A stretch of 48,524 bases of DNA. Source: Thermomucor indicae-seudaticae (Eukaryota; Mucoromycota; Mucoromycetes; Mucorales; Lichtheimiaceae). This document shows positions 6,653 to 46,173 of the stretch, piece after piece. Where the stretch lies: contig JSYX01000082.1 of the NCBI GenBank assembly GCA_000787465.1, forward strand, positions 1 through 48,524. Direction: 5' to 3'. The notes under the pieces are model-generated. The model made no database searches. It had not been told where the DNA came from and saw only the letters and a program-made list of their open reading frames with translations. Both the position numbers and the translations under genes were made by a program. The first letter of the stretch is position 1; the number at the start of each line of letters is the position of its first letter.

Positions 6653-6664
6653 AACCATTTCAAA

Positions 6665-7375
6665 ATGAACTCGAACATATTCCACCAGTTATTCCCTGCT
6701 CAGCAAAAACCCACTGCTGCTACGGCTGCGACGACGGATCCTCTGTTTGACGACTGGTTAGTGCAAGACGCGCTCGACGACGGCGATTCTAGTGCTCCAG
6801 AGTGTAGCTGTAGTAGTACTAGTAGCCCTGGTGTATCGACGCCTCGAGACCAGTACTTTTCGGACGATTGCGGTAGCCCAACACCTACTACGCCTATCAA
6901 GCAAGAGCCTATCTCGATGCCGCCTTGCCAACAACAAAAACAACAACAATTGATTCACGACATTGCTCAGCACCCATTGACGGCAGCCTTGGCTGCGTTA
7001 ATGACAGCAGCCTCTGCTGCTACTGCTGGCCAGACTACACCTCCGCCCACTCCTCCTCCTTCTGCTCCAGCTTCGACCAGTAACAACAGGCGAAAACGGT
7101 CCAGTTCACTAAGCCCACAAGAAGAAGCTGCTATCAAGCGACAGAAGAACACTGATGCGGCACGAAGATCAAGACTCAAAAAGGTGCTGAAGATGGAAGC
7201 GCTCGAACGTCGGGTCTCTGAACTCGAAAAGATCAATGCTGATCTTGCGCTCCGTGTCGCAGTTCTGAACTCGGAAAAAACTGGCTTGGCCAATAAGGAA
7301 CAGTCCTACGAGGAACGGATCAAGATGTTGGAGACTCAGCTCGCCGAAGCCCACAAGGCCCTGGCTCGCCCGTAA
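6665..7375 (+). CDS. Gcn4/Cpc1-type bZIP transcription factor
   Basis: Intronless 236-residue factor, the likely regulator of general amino-acid control. The N-terminal half contains DPLFDDWL, resembling the acidic/aromatic activation motifs of Gcn4 and Cpc1, then Ser/Thr/Pro-, Gln- and Ala-rich linkers. The C-terminal bZIP region has the basic region IKRQKNTDAARRSRLKK (about residues 158-174), which matches the Gcn4 signature NTxAARRSR. It runs into a leucine-zipper-like coiled coil (MEALERRVSELEKINADL) that continues to the end. The leader with three uORFs and the upstream TGAGTCA site support both translational and autoregulatory control. The family call is firm; orthology to Gcn4 rather than a paralogue is inferred. 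Confidence 0.92.
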   Translation: MNSNIFHQLFPAQQKPTAATAATTDPLFDDWLVQDALDDGDSSAPECSCSSTSSPGVSTPRDQYFSDDCGSPTPTTPIKQEPISMPPCQQQKQQQLIHDIAQHPLTAALAALMTAASAATAGQTTPPPTPPPSAPASTSNNRRKRSSSLSPQEEAAIKRQKNTDAARRSRLKKVLKMEALERRVSELEKINADLALRVAVLNSEKTGLANKEQSYEERIKMLETQLAEAHKALARP

Positions 7376-9120: not shown

Positions 9121-11698
9121 TTAGCCTGCGACTTGGGATTTGATGGAAGGAAGAAACAAACCTAGTCTGTTACCCCACCAAATGGGAAATCTATGGTCCT
9201 CGCCGTTCGCTGCACCGTACAGAGCATAGGCAAGGAAGAAGACCATGAGTGATGTACCCGCATCAAAGGCAGTAGACGTAAGGTAGTTGTAGTGGACAAA
9301 CCAAGACCGGTAGTATCGCTTAAGGTACCACTGAGAGGCAAGCACAAGGATAAAGGACACGGTGATAAACGACGAAGCAGCACCGGGCAAAGTGCAGAGG
9401 CCGACCAGGATCATGGGCACATTAACCGATTTGAAGCCGATCTTAGGGAACTTTTTGTGGAGAAGCCAAAAGGGCAGAGGAAGGAAAAACCCAATGACGA
9501 ATGCCCACAGAACAATGTAGTACTTGCTCCCGGGACCAAACATGGCCATTGGGCCAATAGCGCCCCAAGTAATGGCAGCTGAATTGATCGTCTTGTCAAG
9601 GGTGGTTAGTTCGTATGTATGCGATACATAGAGAGAATCGTCGCGGTTATCGTCTTACCTGAGGCATGGCACCGTTCCAGATATTGCTGCCTTTGGGATC
9701 AAGCAAAATGTCTCGTTCATTGGTCACTACGCTCTATATCGATTGGAAACCGATCAATATGGATTGCGCGGCAGCATGGAATACGTTTCCCCGTGTACTT
9801 GCATTATTCACGATATAATTGAACAAGGAACCCAAAATAGTGCCGACGATCTGATTAAAGAACACGACGCGAGGAGGCACCTTGAGATAATGTCCAATCT
9901 TTAGGTCATTGGCCATTAAGCCTGCTTGACTCAGTGTGTTGTAACCCAACGTCTTGAAATACATGTTGGCCACTATCAAAAGAGAAAAATGAGACAGGCT
10001 CACATTCGTGCTCCCGGGGGCCGGTGACCACCACTTACCTGGTAATCCAGGCAAGACGAAACCGCAAATCATTTCAGCAAAGACGTTCAAGCCAAAACCG
10101 GTGCCAGTGACAGCATGGATGAGATTGAGCGGTAGCGACATGATTGAAGACAATGCAATGGCGAAAATAACACTCCACCATGGCAATTGACTATGGTTGA
10201 CGTAAGCAATGCCGATATTGAGAGCAATACCAATCACGAACAGCAGATAATACCACCAGGAAGGTACCTGCAGAAGATAGAAATTTAGCTCAAGATAATG
10301 CATTTACTGTGTTTCAGGTACCTCTTTGTAAGCAGCCATGAGTCTCATATGGATATCGACATCTCCTGTCTTGATGTTCTGGCGGGTGGTTTTCCAGTTG
10401 TTCCAGATCTGCTTTCCATAGTACAGAATGACATGAGTAATGGAAGCGGTAACGGCAAGGTTGATAAAGACATAGTTGATGGCCGAGGTGGTGGGGAAGC
10501 TTGGACGTCCGACTTCCTCTAGTTTGGTTTCGTTGAGCGAATTGTCAGCGTTGAGGACCAAGTGTTGCGGATACACTTCGGATTCGCCTGTCGTCTCGTT
10601 CAGCAAAAAGATGGAGTTGGAGAGGAACGGAAAGCTCTGAGCGTCCCAAACGTTGCAGTAGTAGACGAGCGGGTAAATCAACCACATCAGCAGAATGCCG
10701 CCGTAGATATTTAGCTGGACCCAGAGTGGCAGTACTAGAGGGTTCAAGGACGACAGGTAGTTCCAGTCGAAGCTGAGCTGCAGGATGCCCAAGCCTTCAT
10801 TCACCGCCAGACCACCAAAGAGACGCTGGAACCAATGCGAGCTGGTATTGGCCAAGCAAAAGACCGAGATGCCGCCGAGCAATGGAAACATGTACTGAGG
10901 AAGAAACTCGTACACGAAGACTGCCAGAAACACCAGAAAGAAGTATCGGGTACGCCAGCGTGCTTCGTCTTTGCTGGAGTTGAGTGTTCGGAGCAGCGAC
11001 ACGGTCGGAAGCGAAGTAGGCCAGATCATGTTGGCGGGGTAGACGAGGAAGGGGCGCAGTTGGCCTGCGATGCCGTACCCAACAAGTTGCGTTGCAAAGA
11101 TGAGAAAGATGGATCCTGCGGCTCCAGGAGGATCGGTATAGTAGAGCTGTTGGGCAGACAAGATGTAGGTGGCGTATGCAGAAGTGTTTGCTGCTGAGAC
11201 CATAATGTAGATGCAGGTATGTTCCTTGACGTTAAATGGGCCAGGATTTAACCAATCGTTCCGCGGGAGATAACGTGCCCAGGCGTTGCAGACCACATAG
11301 GCCAACATGAGCATAAACGTGTTGGATAAGGGTAGACCCACTGGTTTGAACTGCATGAGCTGGTAGACCGCCGCTGAAAGACATGCAAAGAGCTGATTTT
11401 CATGTGGAATCAACAAGTATGAGATATGCGACCATAGGGTATTATCTTACGGACTTACAGTGCCAACCACTACTGCTCGGAGGGTAAACGATGGTAGACT
11501 CGGATCATCATCCATTGTAGCGAGTTCGTTGACAATCTGAATGTATGAGTCTTCTTCGTCCTCATTGTTATCATGAACAGATCCCTTCCGCTGTTCTTCG
11601 TCAACTATCATTTCCTGCGGCAGATACATATCCGGCTCAACATGCTTCTCGGATTTTTCGTTTTCCTTGTAATCGGCGGTCTTTACTGGGTCATCCAT
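9121..11698 (-). CDS. Oligopeptide transporter, OPT family
   Basis: Proton-coupled peptide (or peptide-conjugate) importer, predicted multi-pass plasma-membrane protein of 757 residues from six exons: 11698-11459, 11392-10322, 10267-10039, 9972-9785, 9733-9659 and 9591-9121. The joined length is an exact multiple of three. An acidic cytoplasmic N-terminus (about 60 residues) precedes many hydrophobic segments. Family hallmarks are NPGPFNVKEHTCI (the OPT NPG motif), KIGHYLKVPPR, LLDPKGSNIWNGAMPQ and AITWGAIGPMAMFGPGSKYY. The exon 4-5 junction (after NNASTRGN) uses a weak GTATTC donor and is the least certain. A TATATAA box on the minus strand at 11745-11751 lies about 50 bp upstream of the start. 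The ATG at 11698 is the only one before the acidic leader. Confidence 0.93.
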
Positions 11699-13134: not shown

Positions 13135-14469
13135 TCAAGCTGCCGTCGAATTAGAAGCGGCATTGGGCAACTTGGCAGGCGCGAAACCGATACGATTGTT
13201 TCCAAAATCAAAGACAGTGACAAAGTTGCGCAACAGCATGTTACCCAGAATGAACTGCTTGGAGGGGATAAAGAAGAGCAAACATTGGCCATCGGTATCG
13301 CGCTTGCCAACCAATTTCGAGATGGGCACACTGATATAGACGGATCGGCTCTTGTCTTCGGAAGACGGGAACACAATCTTGAGATCATCCTGGTTGTCAT
13401 TCAACCGATTGCAGTCAACGATAAACTGGTTATCCACGAGCTTGGCCTCAGGGGCAATCGTCTCCGCCAGTTGCTGAGCCAGTTTGGTAGGCAAGTACAT
13501 AAAGTTGGAGCCCGTGTCGACTGTAAAAGGTGATCCATGAGGACCCGCAAACTTGAAATTCACGTTTCGGGCCTGGAAGCCTTGCACCCAAATCGACCAC
13601 CGCTGGTGTGCCAGCTTGTCGCTGCCGCTGCCGAGGAGTATCCCGTTGTTCTGCTGGAACGACACGACGTCCGAGTAAACGAAGTTGCCATTCAGCTTGT
13701 CCTGATCGACTCCGCCAAAGACCACTTCTCCCGACCACGCCGTCTTCGAACTGTCACCAATGTATACAGAAAACAGCGGCTCGGGGATCTTGCCAGCCTG
13801 GTAAAGCGCCATCGGAAACGGATAGTACGATTGCTTGTAGCTCTGGTACATGATGGTACCTGCAGGGAAGCCGGCACCGAAAATGCCGTCGAGCACGTAC
13901 TCGTCGCCGCCACCTTGCTGTGCAATCGGTCCCTGGTTCTTGTCCACGGTGGCAAGCACCTGCTTGTCAAGGCTCAGGTCGCCGACTGAAATAGAGTCTA
14001 CAAAATATTCGCCGCGTGCATTCCCAGTACCGTACGTAATGTTGAAGGCGTAATTGGTCGGATGGTAAGTCGACGATTTGCTCGGGTTATACTGGTGGCC
14101 AGAGAGACACCCGTCCTTGGAGGAACACTGGAGAGAAGGAACCCAGGTGTCGGCGCTGCCAGTGTCGAACAAAAGGAGGAAGTTCTGAGCTGGTGTACCA
14201 ATGGAAACTTTTACAGCCAGTTCGTAAAGTTCGAGGTCGTTCAACAAGGGCACTGATCCTGATCCTTTACTGCTGCTGCTGCTACTACTACTGCTGCTCG
14301 GATAGAGGTCTAAAAGGGCATCGTATTCGAGGGCGTGGAAGCTGTTACGATAATACCGGGAGTCGCTTCGGCGGGCAACCTGACGCAACGGCAGACGAAC
14401 GGGCTCGCTGGCCAGGCCACCGAGAGCCATCGCAGCTAAAGTGCTGAGGGCTAGGATAACTGAACGCAT
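13135..14469 (-). CDS. Secreted pepsin-like aspartic protease (A1 family)
   Basis: Single-exon 444-residue preproenzyme. Residues 1-20 (MRSVILALSTLAAMALGGLA) form a signal peptide. A basic propeptide follows and includes a run of ten serines (residues 58-67). The mature bilobal enzyme carries both catalytic motifs: FDTGSADTW with Asp102 and VDTGSNF with Asp318. The flap region is FNITYGTGNARGEY, with the usual flap Tyr, and the C-terminal ILGNMLLRNFVTVFDFGNNR is typical of the family. Six cysteines are visible in the mature region (CSSKDGC, and others near the C-lobe), so disulfides are likely. The enzyme probably acts outside the cell in protein breakdown. The serine run in the propeptide is encoded by a triplet repeat near 14262-14300. 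Confidence 0.95.
   Translation of the reverse strand: MRSVILALSTLAAMALGGLASEPVRLPLRQVARRSDSRYYRNSFHALEYDALLDLYPSSSSSSSSSSKGSGSVPLLNDLELYELAVKVSIGTPAQNFLLLFDTGSADTWVPSLQCSSKDGCLSGHQYNPSKSSTYHPTNYAFNITYGTGNARGEYFVDSISVGDLSLDKQVLATVDKNQGPIAQQGGGDEYVLDGIFGAGFPAGTIMYQSYKQSYYPFPMALYQAGKIPEPLFSVYIGDSSKTAWSGEVVFGGVDQDKLNGNFVYSDVVSFQQNNGILLGSGSDKLAHQRWSIWVQGFQARNVNFKFAGPHGSPFTVDTGSNFMYLPTKLAQQLAETIAPEAKLVDNQFIVDCNRLNDNQDDLKIVFPSSEDKSRSVYISVPISKLVGKRDTDGQCLLFFIPSKQFILGNMLLRNFVTVFDFGNNRIGFAPAKLPNAASNSTAA
14262..14300 (-). repeat. Serine-coding triplet repeat in protease propeptide
   Basis: Imperfect tandem array of AGC/AGT codons (plus strand CTGCTGCTGCTGCTACTACTACTG), encoding the ten-serine run between propeptide and mature enzyme. 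Arrays like this are prone to length variation between strains. Confidence 0.7.
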
Positions 14470-15360
14470 TACGTGGAAAACGGTATTATGAAAGGGAAAG
14501 GAGCGGAAGGGAAGGGGAAAGAGCGAGAGTGGAGAAGAAGGGGAGAAAAGACCATCAAAAATAGCGTGAACCAGAGGTTGAACAAATTTCGTTTCCTTGG
14601 TTACACAGCTGTTTCTTTCATTTTGCAGAATTCAGGCACGTCCGACAACTCTTTTTTCAAGAAGCACGAGGCACACACCTAGAATCATATTAGCGTCTGC
14701 CTCAAAATCGTGCTAGTTCATATCTCAGTAAGTGCAACCTTCCATCCATATTTTTGGTTCCAATATGTAATCGCCAGATCAAAACTACGCATCCATTCTT
14801 CGAAACCTGCAGAACGATCACTTTCAACGGACAAGATAATGAACCGTCAAACTGACACTGCCAGTCATTATCTCTGGCTTGTATCTGGGTATTTGCAATA
14901 ATGTAAGCTGGTCAAGAGATAGGCGGCAAGATCCCAAAAGCGCGCCTTCCCTCGAACCGGGCGGGTCAAAGTTAGTTTGAAGACATTCTTGGAGTAAGTA
15001 AAGCTTCAACTGAATCGGCTTGTGATGCGCTTATTAGCACCTGTAAAACGCTCATTGTCCTATTTCATTTTCTGTATGTCATATGTAGTCTGGTTAATCG
15101 AACGATTGAGGCATCGTTAGAGTTGCCAAAATCAAATTGAGGATGCGATTTCCGCCAGGCACAAAGTCTTTGCACACAATGTCCTCCAGAAAAGACCGAC
15201 AACAATGATCTGCGGTAGATGCGATTAACCAAAGGATTTTGCGATCTTTATTGCTAGCGTGCTTTGCGCACAGCATGATCCCTTTTTTAGCATATAGCCT
15301 GGGAGAAATTTCCCATTGTAGTGGCAAATTTAATTGTGCATTATGCTTGTAAAGAAGCGT
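14470..15360. other. Intergenic DNA, no gene seen
   Basis: Upstream region of the protease gene and downstream region of the aconitase-like gene. I specifically looked here for the missing aconitase swivel domain on the minus strand and found nothing resembling its GDENYGEGSSREHAAL-type block. Confidence 0.55.
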
Positions 15361-17402
15361 TCACTGCTGACTCGGTCTCATCTCAATCCGTGTCCCTTCC
15401 CTATTCGATGCCACAGTCAATAAAGAATCTTGATCATCATCAGCATGTAAAGCCGCTTCTGGAACATTATCGTTATCGGGTGGCTCAAACACGAAGGGCA
15501 GTCCATCCGCGCCAACAATCCTATCTCGGGTCGGATCATATGACAATTTGCCTCCAAATGCCATGGCCATGGCAATCTGTTCTCCATTTCTAATATGAGA
15601 TTCTACGGTCTCCACTGGATACAGGCAATACACCATACCTCAGGAGAAGCAACAAAGACGTGACTATTGGGATTCAGCTTGCTGTGATAGCGCAAGTCGC
15701 AACCGTCGCAAATGAGAACGGAATTGGGTGTTGGCAACTCAAGAGCTTTGTGCCATAGCTCACCACCAGGTCCGCAGCCATTTGCGATGACCGTACCACC
15801 GACTTTCTTAAACAAGCCGTGCAAGCCCTTTTGTTCGATCATTCTGCAGTCGTGCTCGGAACTTGGCACAACCAAAAGAGGTGCCTTCAACTTCAGACCT
15901 TTGTTTAGCGCTTGGCGAGCGACATTAGCGGCACGTTCGATAACTTGCTCAGAAGCATTTCTTGAAGGACCGATCACTACAGCACTCAATGGCTCTGGCC
16001 AATCTTCACTTGCCACTCTCCCTTTTAAGCCCTCGACGGTTGTGGTCAGGATTGGCATAAAGGGGCCGTCAATATAGGGTTCCAAATCGCTTAAATTAAG
16101 ATCGATAACTTGTTCGTATTCAGCTCCGTTGTCGGGTCGCAAGAGATCTCCAGACGCAGACCGTGCCGCGTTAGCAATACCCTGTCGACCTGTCGCGCAA
16201 AGGTATTCAAACATGGATTGAGTGAAAGGAAACACGGAAGCAGTTGCACCGAGCTGCTATTTATCACATTGTCACTGACCGTATGTAGTATGGAAATCTT
16301 CTCTTGCGCTTACCTTTGTAGCCATGTCACAGACAGTAGCCATATCTCCAGAAGACATGGATTCAGCGCCTGAGCCATAGTATTCCAATATAGCACCTCT
16401 TGTTCCTTTCTTCTCCAAGGCCATTGCCAATTTCAGGACAATATCTAACGACGCTCTTCAGTCTGAACATTGTCCTTTATTACTCTCTTTCTATAAGAAA
16501 TGTGTACCTTTTGGAGCGACCCAGCCAGATAAACGACCGCTCAATCGAATACCGATGACCCGTGGATGTTCCAGCTTGCAAGGCAAACCTGCCATGACCT
16601 CCGCTGCCTCTCTTTCACCTATGTCTAGGACTATCGTGCCCAGTCCACCTGTACTATGGGCATTTAACCCAGCACACGTCACGAGACCTCCAGGAAACGC
16701 GTAATGCTTGAGGATCGCTTGATGAATGGTGTTTGGGCCATGTTTCCAGAACCTGACTCCGTACTTTGCAGATGCGTCAGCTATAAGATTATAATCATCT
16801 TTGCCGAATAGATGTGCTGGATCTATCTCGTTTACGTGAGTCTTGTCGTTTTCAGCAACGCAATGGACACTTGTCGGGACAGCAGCCTTTTCGAGTCCGG
16901 CCAACAGAAATTGCGCAAGCACGGTTGGCGCAATGGAGTCTCGGCATGCAAGGCGATCAGGCAAGAGTTGAAGCTTTGCTTTGCCGATTTCATGTTCTTG
17001 AGGATCGTTCAAATGCGCATACAGGATCTTTTGAGCTAACGTAAGCGGCTTGTTATCAAGTCTGCCAGTCAAAAAACGAGACGCCAGTCAAACAGAATTC
17101 CTTTTTTCCGCTCCACTTCTTATGCGATTGACAACACACCTTGCACGCATCACGTCCAAGTTTTGCCTTAAACGATCGTAGGGGACAGGCTGTCCATCAT
17201 GCATGGACATGCGTACATGAGGTCCATGGTATCTAGCAGGAATCGCGTAGTTTTTGCGGACATCATGCAACCCTTGAAGAGGTTTCGGACGCTGAAAAAT
17301 GTGGACAGTTTCTGCATGAGAGACCGATAACCTTAAAATTCATACACGCTCAAAAAGCACCTGAGACTGAATGGTTCGAACCCACAGAAGTCGTGAAGGC
17401 AT
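15361..17402 (-). CDS. Aconitase-like protein lacking catalytic motifs and swivel domain
   Basis: Derived from mitochondrial aconitase but probably not an aconitase. Six exons (17402-17361, 17291-17140, 17061-16508, 16444-16314, 16256-15639, 15576-15361) join to exactly 571 codons, giving 570 residues against about 780 for the enzyme. The N-terminus MPSRLLWVRTIQSQ looks like a short mitochondrial presequence. Family landmarks remain: KPLTLAQKILYAHLNDP, YAFPGG, EVMAGLPCKLEHPRVIGIRL, LSGWVAPK, GAEYEQVIDLNLSDLEPYI and AMAFGGKLSYDPTRD. The usual TDSHTPNAGG block reads CAGLNAHSTGG (residues 194-204), so Asp and His are lost. IGSCTNSS reads IGPSRNAS (388-395), so a cluster cysteine is lost. CGPC reads CGPG (454-457), so a second cluster cysteine is lost. 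The protein stops where domain 4 should begin. No internal stop or frameshift is present, so a maintained non-enzymatic role is plausible. Confidence 0.85.
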
Positions 17403-19084
17403 TGGTATAAAGAAGAAAGAAGAAGGGAAAAAAAGATACGGGACAATGTTGCATTTCATCGGCTACCCTCGGAAGCCTATCACATGCTTCAAAATTCGCA
17501 TATCACCCTAAGGCTTCATTTATCCTCCAATCAACGATCTGTAAAAACAAGCTTTTCCTTTTTATCCTCGTCCATAAGAAAAACTTGTGGATACCCCAGA
17601 GAAATTACCACATATCAGAATGATTATCACTACATACTGCTCACTCGAGTACAGCGACAAGAACCTTGTCGGAAAATGATTCCGTGAATACCTGAAACAG
17701 ACAATCACCACAACGTCATGGAATGCGAGGCAACTCAAAAAGTTGAAAATTCTGCCTTTGAGGATCTGTGAGTCTTTCCTGATCTGTTCATAGACTTCTA
17801 CTATATGTACGCTCCATCATTCATGGCTGGATATAGCGATTGCGATCTCGTCGTCTTGAGGAAGAATAAGAGATCCCGGAAGTGGACATAGTATACGTCT
17901 CTCTGCCTTCGCTGTGAGACTGAAACAATTGTTGCCTTACATGAGTTGCCCATTCGTGTCATGAAGCCCTCTGGTTAAATTAAGCCCATTTTCTGGAATA
18001 GTTCGAAGACGAGATGTTTAAAATTTATAGAACGAACATTGATCCACAATGGCTAAAGCATGATTCACAACACAGGATACATATTATCAAAATCGTCACC
18101 AAACATGGCATAGCTGAACATTGTTCAAACGAGTTTTGCAGATCAAAACATTCCCCAATGGAACTATACCCATCAATGCTAAACATGCACTAAAGTAGGA
18201 AACGCATTGCTGCAAGGGACAGGTGGACACAGAGGCTCCTGAGACTGGTCTCTCTAATACAGGACATATAAGCTGAGGAAGCAGGGTCCCTTCATTCTGG
18301 GGTCGCGAAAGGACAGCGACCTTGTGTAACAAGATCATTATATACCTTGAGTCGTTCGTGTCATCGGCATTTGAGCGGGCCATACTCGGGCATGGGCACG
18401 TTCCAGATTCTTTGGCTATGTACCAACATATGAAATCATCTTAATAATATAAAGAGAGATGGATTACGAAAAGACCCTGTTTTCCAGGTCGTCGAAGATA
18501 GTATGTTTGAAAAGGATCATGATTATCCCCCAAAAATGGAGAAACTGGTACTCCCCATCATTTAGCCAGATCAAGTATTACTATTGTACAGTACAATAAC
18601 TGTTTCCGCACCGAATGGCCCTTTCATGTTAAAGCTAGCTGAGGGCGGCGGGAGCGAGATACGGTCGCTACCTGAACTGGCACCACCTCTTGTGCTAGAA
18701 TGAATAAAGGTCCCAGTTCTAGTTTATTCTCTCTCCTTACATATAGATATCGAAAAGAAAGGGACGACCCAATATTGTTTCTGATTGCAAGTGGTAGAAG
18801 GGTTAACGTGGGAGGAGTATGAATTGGCTCAAGTCGGGGACCACGCCCATCATCGAAATCGCTGTGTCCTTGTCCCACCTTACACTTCTTTCATTTCTTT
18901 TTTTATATTCATTTCTTTTTTTCTCACTTCCTTGCCAAGCAACCCGCTCCTTTCCCTTTGTTCTCCTTCTTTACATGACCTTTGTTGTTCTTACTGCGCA
19001 ATTTTAGTCAAGAAGTTCCTTCAGCCCGTGTCACTCATTTCATTGCAGACATTCCAGTTATCACCGCCGTCCTGACAACCATCA
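17403..19084. other. Divergent promoter region, no gene seen
   Basis: About 1.7 kb between the aconitase-like gene (-) and the surface-protein gene (+). Only short frames occur and none is recognised. The stretch 18885-18975 is a strong pyrimidine tract on the plus strand, as is common just upstream of fungal transcription starts. Confidence 0.5.
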
Positions 19085-22003: not shown

Positions 22004-22424
22004 TGTTAACAACAGATGGAAGAACGTCGATTGACAGCTTCAATGAGAACAAGAAACGAGCCCATACAGGCAACCCATTTTCCCTTTCTGCGTGAAAGCA
22101 GACGCTCGGTGGGAAACTCCGATCTCTCTCTTTTCGAAACCTTCCTTTGTCCCGGACCCTCGCTCCTTCATAAGCCGAAACACGCTGCATTCCAGCATAG
22201 CGCTCGGCATCATTTAGCTTATAAATTTACCATATGAAGATGTCTTAGGCACTGCATACAATTCGTTGCTTGCAGATATGAGTGATCAACAGCGGGGAAA
22301 CCAGATATGATGTTAAGCATGCGTAATTGCTGGGGACTTGACGTCAAGGTCCATCATAGCTCTGTTACGAATAAAAGACCTTTTGGCTTATCTTTCTTTA
22401 TCATCATCGGTTGCTTTTTCCTCG
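22004..22424. other. Divergent promoter between endosulfine and phosphoketolase
   Basis: About 420 bp separating the two start codons. A short frame begins with an ATG at 22278 and stops after about ten codons, which would be a uORF if transcribed. No TATA consensus is obvious. Confidence 0.4.
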
Positions 22425-25400
22425 ATGGCTACGTTGACATCGGCAGCAGGGCTTCGAGATATTGCAAAACATCTGGGTGTGGCATTGGATCTGGATCGAC
22501 AAAAGCCAGATGATTTGGAACCATATTTGGCATTGCAGCGCGCTACAAACTATCTCGCAGGCGCCATGATCTTTCTGCAGTCGAACGTACTGCTTGACCG
22601 AGGCCCTCTAAAAAGTGAGGATATCAAACCACGTCTGCTGGGTCATTGGGGTACCTGTCCTGGCATCAACCTTGTGTACGCTCACTGTACCCGGTTGATC
22701 AAGCGGCAAAAGCTGGCCATGCTCTTTGTCACAGGCCCTGGGCACGGTGCTCCTGCTAATCTTGCCAATCTCTACATTGAACAGTCCATTACAAAGTACT
22801 ACCCGAAATATGCGCTGGATAGAGAAGGGGTTGAGAAATTGGTACGCGGATTCTCGTGGCCAACTGGGTTTCCGAGGTAAAAGACCGGGCTAAGTCATAC
22901 GACAAAAGTTTTCCTTCCCCCGCCCTAACATTCTCTGTGGATCAGTCACACCAATTCTGAGGTGCCTGGCCAAATTCATGAAGGTAGAGAGCAAAACGTT
23001 GCCGCGTAGATGGATGGGTGCTCACTGGCGACGATGCAGGCGGAGAACTCGGTTATGCATTGGCGGTCAGTTTTGGCGCGGCCCTTGATAATCCTGATCT
23101 TATCGTTACGTGTTTGGTCGGAGGTAATGATCTCTGTAAACGCCAGGGGAACGGCGCGAGCGGTAGAGTACTGATGCGCTTGCTTTAATATTTTAGATGG
23201 TGAAGCAGAAACAGGACCAACCGCGACAGCCTGGCAGTCCTTCAAGTTCATTGATCCAGCTACTTCGGGTGCTGTTCTGCCTATCCTGCATCTGAACGGC
23301 TTTAAGATTTCCCAACGGACTATCTATGGCTGCATGAGGTAATACATGCGAAGTCGCCGCTACGAACGCGTGGATTCCTCACCATGCCTTCCAATCTAGT
23401 GATGATGAACTTGTTTCCCTGTTTACTGGCTATGGATATCAAGTACGCATCGTGGGTTCCGATCTGGACAAGATCCAGGTCGATATGGCAGTATCTCTCG
23501 AGTGGGCTGTGTCGACGATCCGGGACATTCAAAAAGCAGCACGATCCGGGAAACCTATCTACAAGCCACGTTGGCCAATATTGATCCTGCGTTCACCCAA
23601 GGGCTGGACAGGTCCCAAATCAGTACATGGGAAGCAAATAGAAGGGACATTCCACGCGCATCAGGTCCCGCTTCCAAAGGCTAAAAAGGACGAGGAGGAG
23701 CTGCAAAAGCTACGAGAGTGGTTGGAAGGATACAACCCCAAGTCGTTGTTTGACGAATGTGGTAAACCGATTCGTGAGCTTTTGGATTGCTTTCCCGAAG
23801 ACGAGAGCCTACGGATGGGTATGCGGAGAGAAACCCATGAGGGATCGTACCGCCCATTGGAACTGCCTGACTGGGAAGAATACGCCGTCCAAGATCAAGA
23901 GGCGTCTAGTTCAATGCACCTTGCGGGACAATATCTTGGTGAAGTTTGCGACCGCAATCCACGGTCGTTCAGAATCTTTTCGCCGGACGAGCTCACATCC
24001 AATAAACTTACCAAAGTGCTAGATAAAACGACGCGTACCATGGAAGTATGTTTTACTCAAGGACGCGTTAAAGAACCAGTGCAGCTCATCACTGTTCGTT
24101 GTAATCTAGTGGGATCCCGATCTGGTTGGCAAAGGTGGACGAGTGATTGAAGTGCTCTCGGAGCATACGTGCCAAGGTTTACTGCAAGGCTATACATTGA
24201 CAGGAAGAACAGGCTTATTCCCAAGCTATGAAGCGTAAGCTGAAGAGGGCGCCACATGTTGACTATTTCAAGAGTCTAATCGCGGCTCTATAATCAGCTT
24301 CTTGGGTATCATTACGACCATGTTAATTCAATATGCCAAGTTCCTTAAACTGGGACAGGAGACACTGTGGAAGCGGCCTGTGCCATCCCTCAACTATATC
24401 GAGGTAAGCAAAATTCTGTATCCTATGTCCCGTCAAGATACACTATCCTGACAATGGCAGGGTTTATAGACCAGTACGCTTTGGCGTCAAGAACACAATG
24501 GATTCAGTCATCAGAACCCAGCATTTCTGAACAACCTCATGAATCTAAAGTCAAATATGATACGTATCTACTTGCCTCCGGACGCGAATTGCATGCTTTC
24601 GACCCTGGACCATTGCTTACGGTCAACAGGTTATATCAATCTCATTGTCAGCGCAAAGAATCCGACTCCACTGTGGATCACGTCCGCCGAGAAAGCAGCC
24701 GAGCACTGTCGCGCCGGTGTTTCAGTTTGGTCTGAATACAGCACCGATGAAGGACGAAACCCGGATGTCGTGATCGTAGGATGTGGTGTTGAGACAACGT
24801 TTGAGGCGATTGCGGCTGCGGCTCTCCTGAGGAGAGACTGCCCTGAGCTGCGTGTCCGCGTGGTTAATGTAACAGGTAAGGGAAAAGGGAATTGCTTGCA
24901 AGTGCACAACGCAGAACTTTGACGATAAACCGTCGTCTTTTGGTTGCAGACCTTATGGTGTTTGGCTTTACACATTCGCATCGACTCTCGCAAGATGAGT
25001 TTGACGCCATATTCACAGCCGATAGACCCATTATCTTTAATTTTCATGGTTACCCATCCGCAATCAAGAGTCTGGCATACGACCGTGTTTCAGCGCATCG
25101 TATGGCTGTGGTAAGTTTGCCGTAGAACATGGTAGAAAAACGAGATACTCAATTTGTTCTCAAGCACGGCTACAACGAGGAAGGCACAACGACTACGCCT
25201 TTCCGAATGCTGACAGCAAATGGTATGACTAGTAATCTGTAAGCATCGGATCATGGCTCCAATCCACTTGCTTGTATTAGGCTGTTCTCGTTATGATCTG
25301 GCCATTGATGCACTCCACAGAGTTTTGCCGCATGAAGCTGTGAACATCAAGGCTCGAACTTTGATATCAAACTATAAGCATGCAATCCGCGAACACGAAA

Positions 25401-44503: not shown

Positions 44504-46173
44504 TTATCGGTCAATATCCATGCTTTCTTTTTGCCAGATCGAATCAACAGCCTCTCCATCGTTATCATCATCCCCTTCATACCATTCGTTTTCCAAGAAC
44601 ACCCCTCGGTTCTTTGGTCGCGTATCTTTCCCGAGTTCAGAGTCCTCTTCAGCATCGTTCAATTCCTCATCACCATCCAAAAACCCTTGAATATCCGGTG
44701 GTATTTCCTGCATCTGGATACTGGGTGCAGCGTTCAGATACCGTAGTTGTTCCATGACACGTTCGCGAACTTTGAGGAGATATTGCCGATCGTTCTGGTT
44801 TTCAACGCGTCCAGACAGATGAGGGTGAAGTTTGTAGTCTGGCTTGAAGAAGTCAATGTATTCGTTAGGCGGCAGGTCGTTAGACAGCTCTGTATCGACC
44901 AAGATCGAAGTCTCGTATGTCCAGCATCGCGCGACGTTACGAACTGTGTATCCTCCTCCACCCACAACGAGCATAGGTATCTTGAAGTCCTTGATGATCT
45001 GTACGCATCGTCCGTGCGCTTCAATACTTAGATTGAAGCAACCCAAGCGATCGCATCCCAGCGAATCGGCGCCGCACTGGAGAACGATGGCAGACGGCTG
45101 AAACGTCCCAATAACAGCATTCATGACTTCCTCGAACAGCCATACGTAAGACTGGTCATCGATCCCATCCCGAAGTGGTACATTAACAGAATAGTATTTG
45201 CCAAGTGCGGATCCGATCTCATCAATGTGACCAGTGCCTGGAAAGAAGTCGCCATTATACTTGTGGAACGAAACCGTCATTACTCGATCAGTAGTATAGA
45301 ATGCTTCCTGAACGCCGTCTCCATGATGAATATCAATATCCACATATAATACTCGAGGAAAATATCTGTGCGAATTGCGATAAGCCAAAAAAGAACCATG
45401 GTTATTACCGTTGTCTTTCTCTTACCGAAGGAGTTCAAGAATGCCAAGTACAATGTCATTTACGTAGCAGAATCCACTGGCCTCACACTTTTTCGCATGG
45501 TGAAGACCTCCAGACCAATTGATGCAAATGTCGGCACCATTAGCAATAAGTTTTCGTGAAGCCTCGATCGTGGCGCCGGCATACCGTTGGCAAAACTCGT
45601 ATATACCCTCAAACACAGGGCAGTCGTCACCGACATTGAATTTCTGGAAGACGTGCTCGAATTGTTCAGCATTGTCGGGTGTTACTCTATGAATTTGTAG
45701 AATCGTCAAGTTGTGCCCCGGTTTTGCGTCAGGTAAAGAGACGCACACACCTTTTCAGGAAATCAACATAGTCTTCTGCATGGAATGCAAGAATTTCGGC
45801 GTCAGTCGCACGTCGAGGTTGAAAGATCTCCATCTTCTTGTGTAAGCCGTATTTGAGTACCAAGTGGTTGGTGAGCGTTAATCGATGAGGTTTCATTGGG
45901 TGCCGCTCCTATAACGATATAAGTGAAGGAGACACACACACAAAAGTTGATGAATTTACTACTCAATGGAGTACTGGCGGTAGTAGTAAATGCATAACTT
46001 ACACCGTAGTGATAATTGCCCACCCCTTCGTCATGAAAATAAGCGACTCTAGTCTTGTCATGAGACGCTAATCTCACCGAACGGGGAGCCATGTACTTTG
46101 CTTTTTGTGTTGAGCGGTAATCCTCAGTAAATGTGGCAACGACACTGCCGTCATTGTAGCTTCGACGTGGCAT
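44504..46173 (-). CDS. HOS2: Class I histone deacetylase, Hos2/HDAC3 type
   Basis: Zinc-dependent lysine deacetylase, in other fungi the catalytic subunit of the Set3 complex. The N-terminus reads [20 protein letters not shown], then [35 protein letters not shown] and HAEDYVDFL. Catalytic core: [20 protein letters not shown], then [20 protein letters not shown] (the tandem active-site histidines), [17 protein letters not shown] (zinc ligands), [35 protein letters not shown] and [20 protein letters not shown]. The acidic C-terminal tail includes [30 protein letters not shown] together with [13 protein letters not shown] fits HDAC3/Hos2 better than Rpd3. Three introns. It is divergent from the release-factor gene, with 91 bp between the two start codons. 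Confidence 0.95.

Follow-up and report, generated by a model that had tools for sequence, protein, structure and literature searches.

The analysed stretch of DNA from Thermomucor indicae-seudaticae (contig JSYX01000082.1, 48,524 nucleotides; hereafter the window) contains a gene for an aconitase-like protein that is likely an old paralogue, probably of the AcoB/Aco2 lineage, which selection has retained in three-domain form, without the swivel domain and nearly all of the active site. Its spliced reading frame is intact and its framework residues are preserved, loss is focused on catalytic residues, and a swivel domain was seen neither in cis nor as an orphan gene.

Results

Structure of the gene and its flanking sequences

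The gene occupies positions 17402-15361 of the minus strand (Table 1) and is composed of six exons of 57, 152, 554, 131, 615, and 216 nt. The five introns between them have GT-AG borders and lengths of 54-78 nt, similar to the 57-80 nt of the introns in two intact paralogues from this genome. The model comprises 574 codons plus a stop codon, with no internal stop; stop codons, frameshifts, and broken splice sites, by which a pseudogene would be recognised, are all absent from it. The initial annotation had described six exons joined into 571 codons without an internal stop, and while the exon number and the open frame stand, the re-spliced model corrects the length to 574. The altered motifs that it had listed, i.e., CAGLNAHSTGG, IGPSRNAS, and CGPG, are likewise present in the protein, although they start at residues 199, 392, and 458, which are 4-5 residues later than had been given.

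A pyrimidine tract before the ATG is a feature of many fungal promoters, and the gene possesses such a tract as well as a possible polyadenylation signal past the stop codon (Table 1). A scan of the surrounding DNA for promoters and terminators with bacterial patterns gave results near the chance level. The first 28 residues of the protein include 5 Arg/Lys and 1 acidic residue, a composition that makes an N-terminal mitochondrial presequence plausible, and the protein would then be imported into mitochondria. The adjoining gene, which runs in the same direction, encodes an aspartyl protease; the genome is rich in such genes, with 38 PF00026 matches when exons are counted.

Table 1. Positions in the window of the aconitase-like gene, its flanking signals, and neighbouring genes
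Feature	Positions	Strand	Description
Pyrimidine tract	17409..17436	-	28 nt, ending 6 nt before ATG
Exon 1	17346..17402	-	Presequence-like N-terminus, 19 codons
Intron 1	17292..17345	-	54 nt; in presequence, at a place similar to that of a paralogue intron (C292/C8 comparison)
Exon 2	17140..17291	-	Intron at its 3' end splits codon R70
Intron 2	17062..17139	-	78 nt; phase 2; same place in C292 (true aconitase), not in C8
Exon 3	16508..17061	-	Domains 1-2; Gln72 lost, Asp100-His101 deleted, His147 kept, Asp-Ser-His loop lost
Intron 3	16445..16507	-	63 nt; absent from both C8 and C292
Exon 4	16314..16444	-	Asn258 and Glu262 lost
Intron 4	16254..16313	-	60 nt; phase 0; common to C8 and C292
Exon 5	15639..16253	-	Domain 3; ligands Cys358 and Cys424 changed to Ser and Gly, respectively; Asn446-Arg447 substituted; C421 retained; C480 and C483 gained
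Intron 5	15577..15638	-	62 nt; phase 0; common to C8, not C292
Exon 6	15361..15576	-	Last part of domain 3, then linker; stop codon at expected start of swivel domain
AATAAA, possible polyadenylation signal	15247..15252	-	~109 nt past stop codon
Aspartyl protease gene	13135..14469	-	Single exon
OPT oligopeptide transporter exon	10304..11446	-	Ordinary fungal gene
bZIP factor	6653..7375	+	Ordinary fungal gene
Phosphoketolase exons	22317..24150	+	XFP_N and start of XFP
Histone deacetylase exon	44504..45421	-	Ordinary fungal gene

Domain content and the missing swivel domain

The preservation of domains 1-3, which had been noticed from the translation, is borne out by profile and sequence comparisons. 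The protein fills the whole PF00330 model (1-463 of 463, E 4.1e-75, 254 bits, above the gathering score), and its residues 53-574 align with pig mitochondrial aconitase (E 1.5e-126, 426 bits). The TIGR01340 model for mitochondrial aconitase matches residues 57-552 with 450 bits, which is below its curated cut-off of 825 bits, while the large subunits of LeuC-type enzymes and homoaconitase give clear matches that are weaker than that of mitochondrial aconitase. PF00694, the swivel domain, is absent from the 574-residue protein, whose stop codon lies in the linker before the swivel, in agreement with the earlier view that the chain ends where domain 4 should start. An interval of 891 bp lies between the stop codon and the start codon (ATG) of the neighbouring gene, and tblastn of the window with the swivel domains of the paralogues C8 and C292 yielded no swivel remnant, only scattered chance matches (best E 0.079) of which none is collinear downstream. 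A swivel domain on a further downstream exon, the event that the initial annotation had named as able to overturn its reading, is thus ruled out by this search.

In the 24.8-Mb genome assembly, where the window is contig C75 in the numbering used here, a profile search of the contigs for PF00330 gave 12 matches at five loci, the fifth of which is the aconitase-like gene. C292 is the mitochondrial aconitase, and C8, which has nine introns, is an aconitase of the AcoB/Aco2 type that carries the Arg-to-Lys change of that group; C258 is predicted to be homoaconitase-like, and C29, in which a single frame encodes both domains, to be isopropylmalate-isomerase-like. The standard steps of the aconitase family are covered by separate complete genes. 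C292 is 39% identical to the aconitase-like protein, and the two align over domains 1-3 and the linker. When the best candidates from the genome were scored with PF00694, 5 matches at 4 loci were found, all in genes with their own PF00330; neither an orphan swivel gene nor a swivel subunit encoded elsewhere was seen among them.

Concentration of loss on the active site

The protein was compared with 228 reference sequences, consisting of C8, C292, and 226 of 240 fetched database proteins (the 14 outside 700-860 aa being left out), in which 158 of the 481 columns of domains 1-3 were near-invariant, i.e., at least 98.5% invariant. The active site was represented by 16 residues in domains 1-3 of the pig enzyme. 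The MAFFT alignment shows 3 of them as conserved, and the number falls to 2 when no gaps are placed in the Asp-Ser-His loop, a reading suggested by the equal lengths of the loops; the two survivors are then H147 and the cluster ligand C421, which corresponds to C458 of the aconitase-like protein. As had been stated in the initial annotation, two of the three cluster ligands are gone, C358 being changed to Ser and C424 to Gly. In contrast, 87 of the 142 other near-invariant sites are retained, including 27 of the 52 polar ones. Fisher's test of the active site against the 142 sites gives a p of 0.0023 with 3 residues kept and of 0.0003 with 2; against the 52 polar sites, the values are 0.023 and 0.008, respectively. 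Retention in the active site is far below that at other invariant sites, and the loss is therefore concentrated on the catalytic set. Two other observations are less clear: near-invariant positions no more than 4 residues away from the active site are retained only slightly less often (27/49) than distant ones (60/93), and 163 of the 325 columns common to C8 and C292 are unchanged in the aconitase-like protein. It has three private deletions in domains 1-3, one of which removes exactly Asp100-His101. Whole-codon length changes were dropped as evidence of selection, since an alignment of open frames can show only whole codons.

Aconitase needs its cluster ligands and base pairs for holding the cluster and for citrate dehydration. 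With most of them replaced, the protein would be expected to form no normal 4Fe-4S cluster and to have no hydratase activity, and the loss of the catalytic set and of the normal cluster site, proposed earlier, is upheld by the comparison. At the sequence level, it has the hallmark of a pseudoenzyme, namely, a recognisable enzyme domain devoid of catalytic residues. Over the same columns it contains 10 cysteines, compared with 8 in C292 and 5 in C8, and two of them, C480 and C483, compose a new CxxC at positions that are Ser and Arg in 228/228 references.

Lineage of the paralogue

Introns 2, 4, and 5 agree in position and phase with introns of C292 or C8, which marks the gene as a DNA-level duplicate and rules out a retrocopy. 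An insert of one residue that precedes the first aconitase motif is common to the aconitase-like protein, C8, P0009 (Gonapodya), and P0019 (Filobasidium); P0122 and P0195 also have letters at that column, in an irregular alignment. Residues that are rare among the 228 references are shared with P0019 and P0009 in 20 cases each, with the bacterial P0041 in 16, with C8 and P0001 in 15 each, and with C292 in 0, although this zero is partly built in because many C292-like references make its residues common. In a thinned set of 25 references the counts were 15 for P0009 and P0019, 11 for C8, 10 for P0001, and 0 for C292, and a set of 18 gave the same counts, plus 10 for P0021. Plain residue sharing is even: 44 residues are found otherwise only in C8 and 43 only in C292 when these two are compared, and a three-way alignment gives 40 for each. 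In a tree of domains 1-3 built from 26 hand-picked rows, the aconitase-like protein joins C8 and P0009 with support of 88/51, while the alternative topology that groups it with Mucorales aconitases is not rejected (p-AU 0.216). Its end branch measures 2.17 against a median of 0.18; a mixture-model tree put this branch at the program limit (10) and was not used for placement. The site of Aco1p R604, whose change from Arg to Lys marks the AcoB/Aco2p subclade including Saccharomyces cerevisiae Aco2p, according to PMC3556520, belongs to the missing domain 4, and is Lys in C8 and P0009 and Arg in P0019. The nearest kin of the protein is probably the AcoB/Aco2 lineage, which is favoured by the insert, the rare residues, and intron 5, the other measures being even or weak.

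The nearest match of C8 itself is a Gonapodya protein (65%) and not a mucoralean one, in a set that was fetched with other queries. In P0019 from Filobasidium floriforme, a divergent aconitase on a long branch, the motif CGPC reads CGAC; this is possibly another fast-changing protein of the AcoB type.

Search for orthologues

A search with the full-length protein, in which the 7997 candidates sharing most words were scored, gave 4551 matches, the best 120 of which were inspected. No close orthologue was found, identity being nowhere above 44% among these best 120 of 4551. Within the same 120, DSHT is present in 120, GSCTNS in 118, CGPC in 119, and all three in 117, the exceptions being P0019, P0020, and P0028. 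A second search with residues 384-500 scored 173 candidates and yielded none with E <= 0.001; it may miss orthologues below roughly 45-50% identity, as we estimate, and genes that are unpredicted in their genomes. Neither search, therefore, brought up the orthologues with the same substitutions for which the initial annotation had suggested looking. Two short proteins with PF00330 only, P0074 and P0095, were looked at as truncated parallels and rejected, because their catalytic motifs are kept. An exon of the true aconitase C292 retrieved proteins of Fennellomyces, Lichtheimia, Apophysomyces, and Dichotomocladium with 87-89% identity, showing that close Mucorales aconitases are present in the database. 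Thus, the aconitase-like gene is confined to an unsampled or narrow lineage, or else its orthologues have diverged too far to pass the word filter or lack a gene prediction in other genomes. Among the best matches in the open-licence literature, at the level of titles and starts of abstracts, no description of a swivel-less, catalytically dead aconitase was found.

Retention of the reading frame

Loss of constraint was simulated with a neutral model in which the whole gene was unconstrained, the fraction of changed sites equalled that of lost invariant sites, and indels did not occur. Four settings with 300 runs each, using two proxy ancestors and random stand-ins for the invariant sites, produced no stop-free frame in 1200 runs, about 8-10 stop codons being expected. 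Frame retention, from which selection had been suspected at the outset, hence exceeds the fully neutral expectation, although the outcome would also be compatible with a frame left open by long constraint and recent death of the gene. Codon choice is gene-like: with two different training sets, each including a paralogue, none of 500 random synonymous versions reached the score of the actual sequence. GC3, at 0.452, is the lowest among the seven coding sequences compared and the nearest to the GC contents of introns and intergenic DNA (0.40 and 0.42), which suggests that the gene is probably weakly expressed.

Discussion

The findings of the present study are best explained by a selectively retained three-domain protein that would work without catalysis, probably in mitochondria. 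The loss of the swivel domain would leave the substrate cleft uncovered, and the remaining body would most likely use this old cleft to bind a small ligand or a protein partner; partner or ligand binding, or a scaffold role, may be the simplest job for such a body. Binding of RNA, which had been among the roles first considered, or of DNA gets no support, because the pI of the protein (5.8-6.0) and its net charge (-8 to -11) are acidic, near the values of its paralogues (5.4-6.0, -6 to -10), and nothing else points in that direction.

The rather unlikely alternative is that a fast-changing, long-lived paralogue was functional until recently and has since turned into a pseudogene, no longer expressed but with its frame still whole. 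The very long end branch, the low GC3, and the absence of the swivel domain would all accord with such a history, as would the lack of orthologues among the best 120 of 4551 matches and in the search with residues 384-500. A dead gene, however, would have to have escaped any stop or frameshift and retained five clean GT-AG introns, a pyrimidine tract ahead of the ATG, AATAAA past the stop codon, and gene-like codon choice, all of which argue against recent death.

There is a slimmer chance that the protein is a neofunctionalised enzyme, whose framework carries another active site and acts on another substrate; C458 and C480/C483 might then compose a new metal site. The swivel domain, which supplies the catalytic Ser of aconitase, is gone, the number of cysteines is only slightly raised, and no orthologue was found that would show their conservation, all of which weigh against a new enzyme. 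On the other side, the CxxC is unique compared with the 228 references, C458 is kept, and another branch of the aconitase family, AcnX, has a different substrate (PMC8184944, PMC5144071). An equally speculative, improbable idea is that the cleft was rebuilt in a mitochondrial three-domain remnant, where C458 and the CxxC might coordinate a metal or make up a redox-sensitive disulfide; if so, the protein would be a mucoralean iron or redox sensor derived from a dead metabolic enzyme. A swivel domain supplied in trans, which would make the protein comparable to the large subunit in a two-subunit isomerase, is very improbable despite the domain layout of stand-alone large subunits and the clear, if weaker, LeuC-type and homoaconitase matches, because the 5 PF00694 matches (4 loci) among the best candidates of the genome sit in four complete genes and the catalytic residues of the large subunit are gone too.

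The reading as a probable, selection-retained pseudoenzyme of the aconitase family can be set against several known systems. In comparison with mitochondrial aconitase, represented by the pig enzyme Aco2 (PDB 1nis) and C292, the protein is alike in domains 1-3 and the linker, which align, and unlike in that the catalytic set is mostly gone, only 1 of the 3 cluster ligands remains, and domain 4 is missing. IRP1 and IRP2 are full-length proteins with domain 4 present, and the latter, to our knowledge, has no aconitase activity. The aconitase-like protein matches IRP1 with only 83 bits over residues 190-374, compared with 426 bits for pig mitochondrial aconitase, and an IRP-like mode of action without domain 4 is unlikely. 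IRP1 nevertheless exemplifies an aconitase-family protein with a non-enzymatic role (PMC6584224). A DNA-related role, i.e., the maintenance of mtDNA, is ascribed to S. cerevisiae Aco1p in the review PMC11431987, but Aco1p is an active full-length enzyme, while the protein studied here is acidic and no nucleic-acid-binding feature was seen in it.

The closest comparison is with AcoB/Aco2p. According to PMC3556520, AcoB of Aspergillus fumigatus and Aspergillus nidulans is expressed, is inactive with aconitate and homoaconitate, does not complement yeast, and can be deleted without a growth defect, which makes it a puzzle in Aspergillus, an expressed protein inactive with the substrates tested. 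A probable AcoB relative that has lost the catalytic machinery and kept the body would suggest a non-catalytic job for the lineage, one that would become testable by simple gene removal, and it would be a clear case of the conversion of an Fe-S enzyme into a pseudoenzyme. The likeness to AcoB/Aco2p lies in the insert, the rare residues, and one intron, together with the inactivity already reported in PMC3556520 for Aspergillus AcoB. The difference is that AcoB proteins, as described there, keep virtually all catalytic residues, whereas in the T. indicae-seudaticae protein 13-14 of 16 are gone, along with the entire swivel domain.
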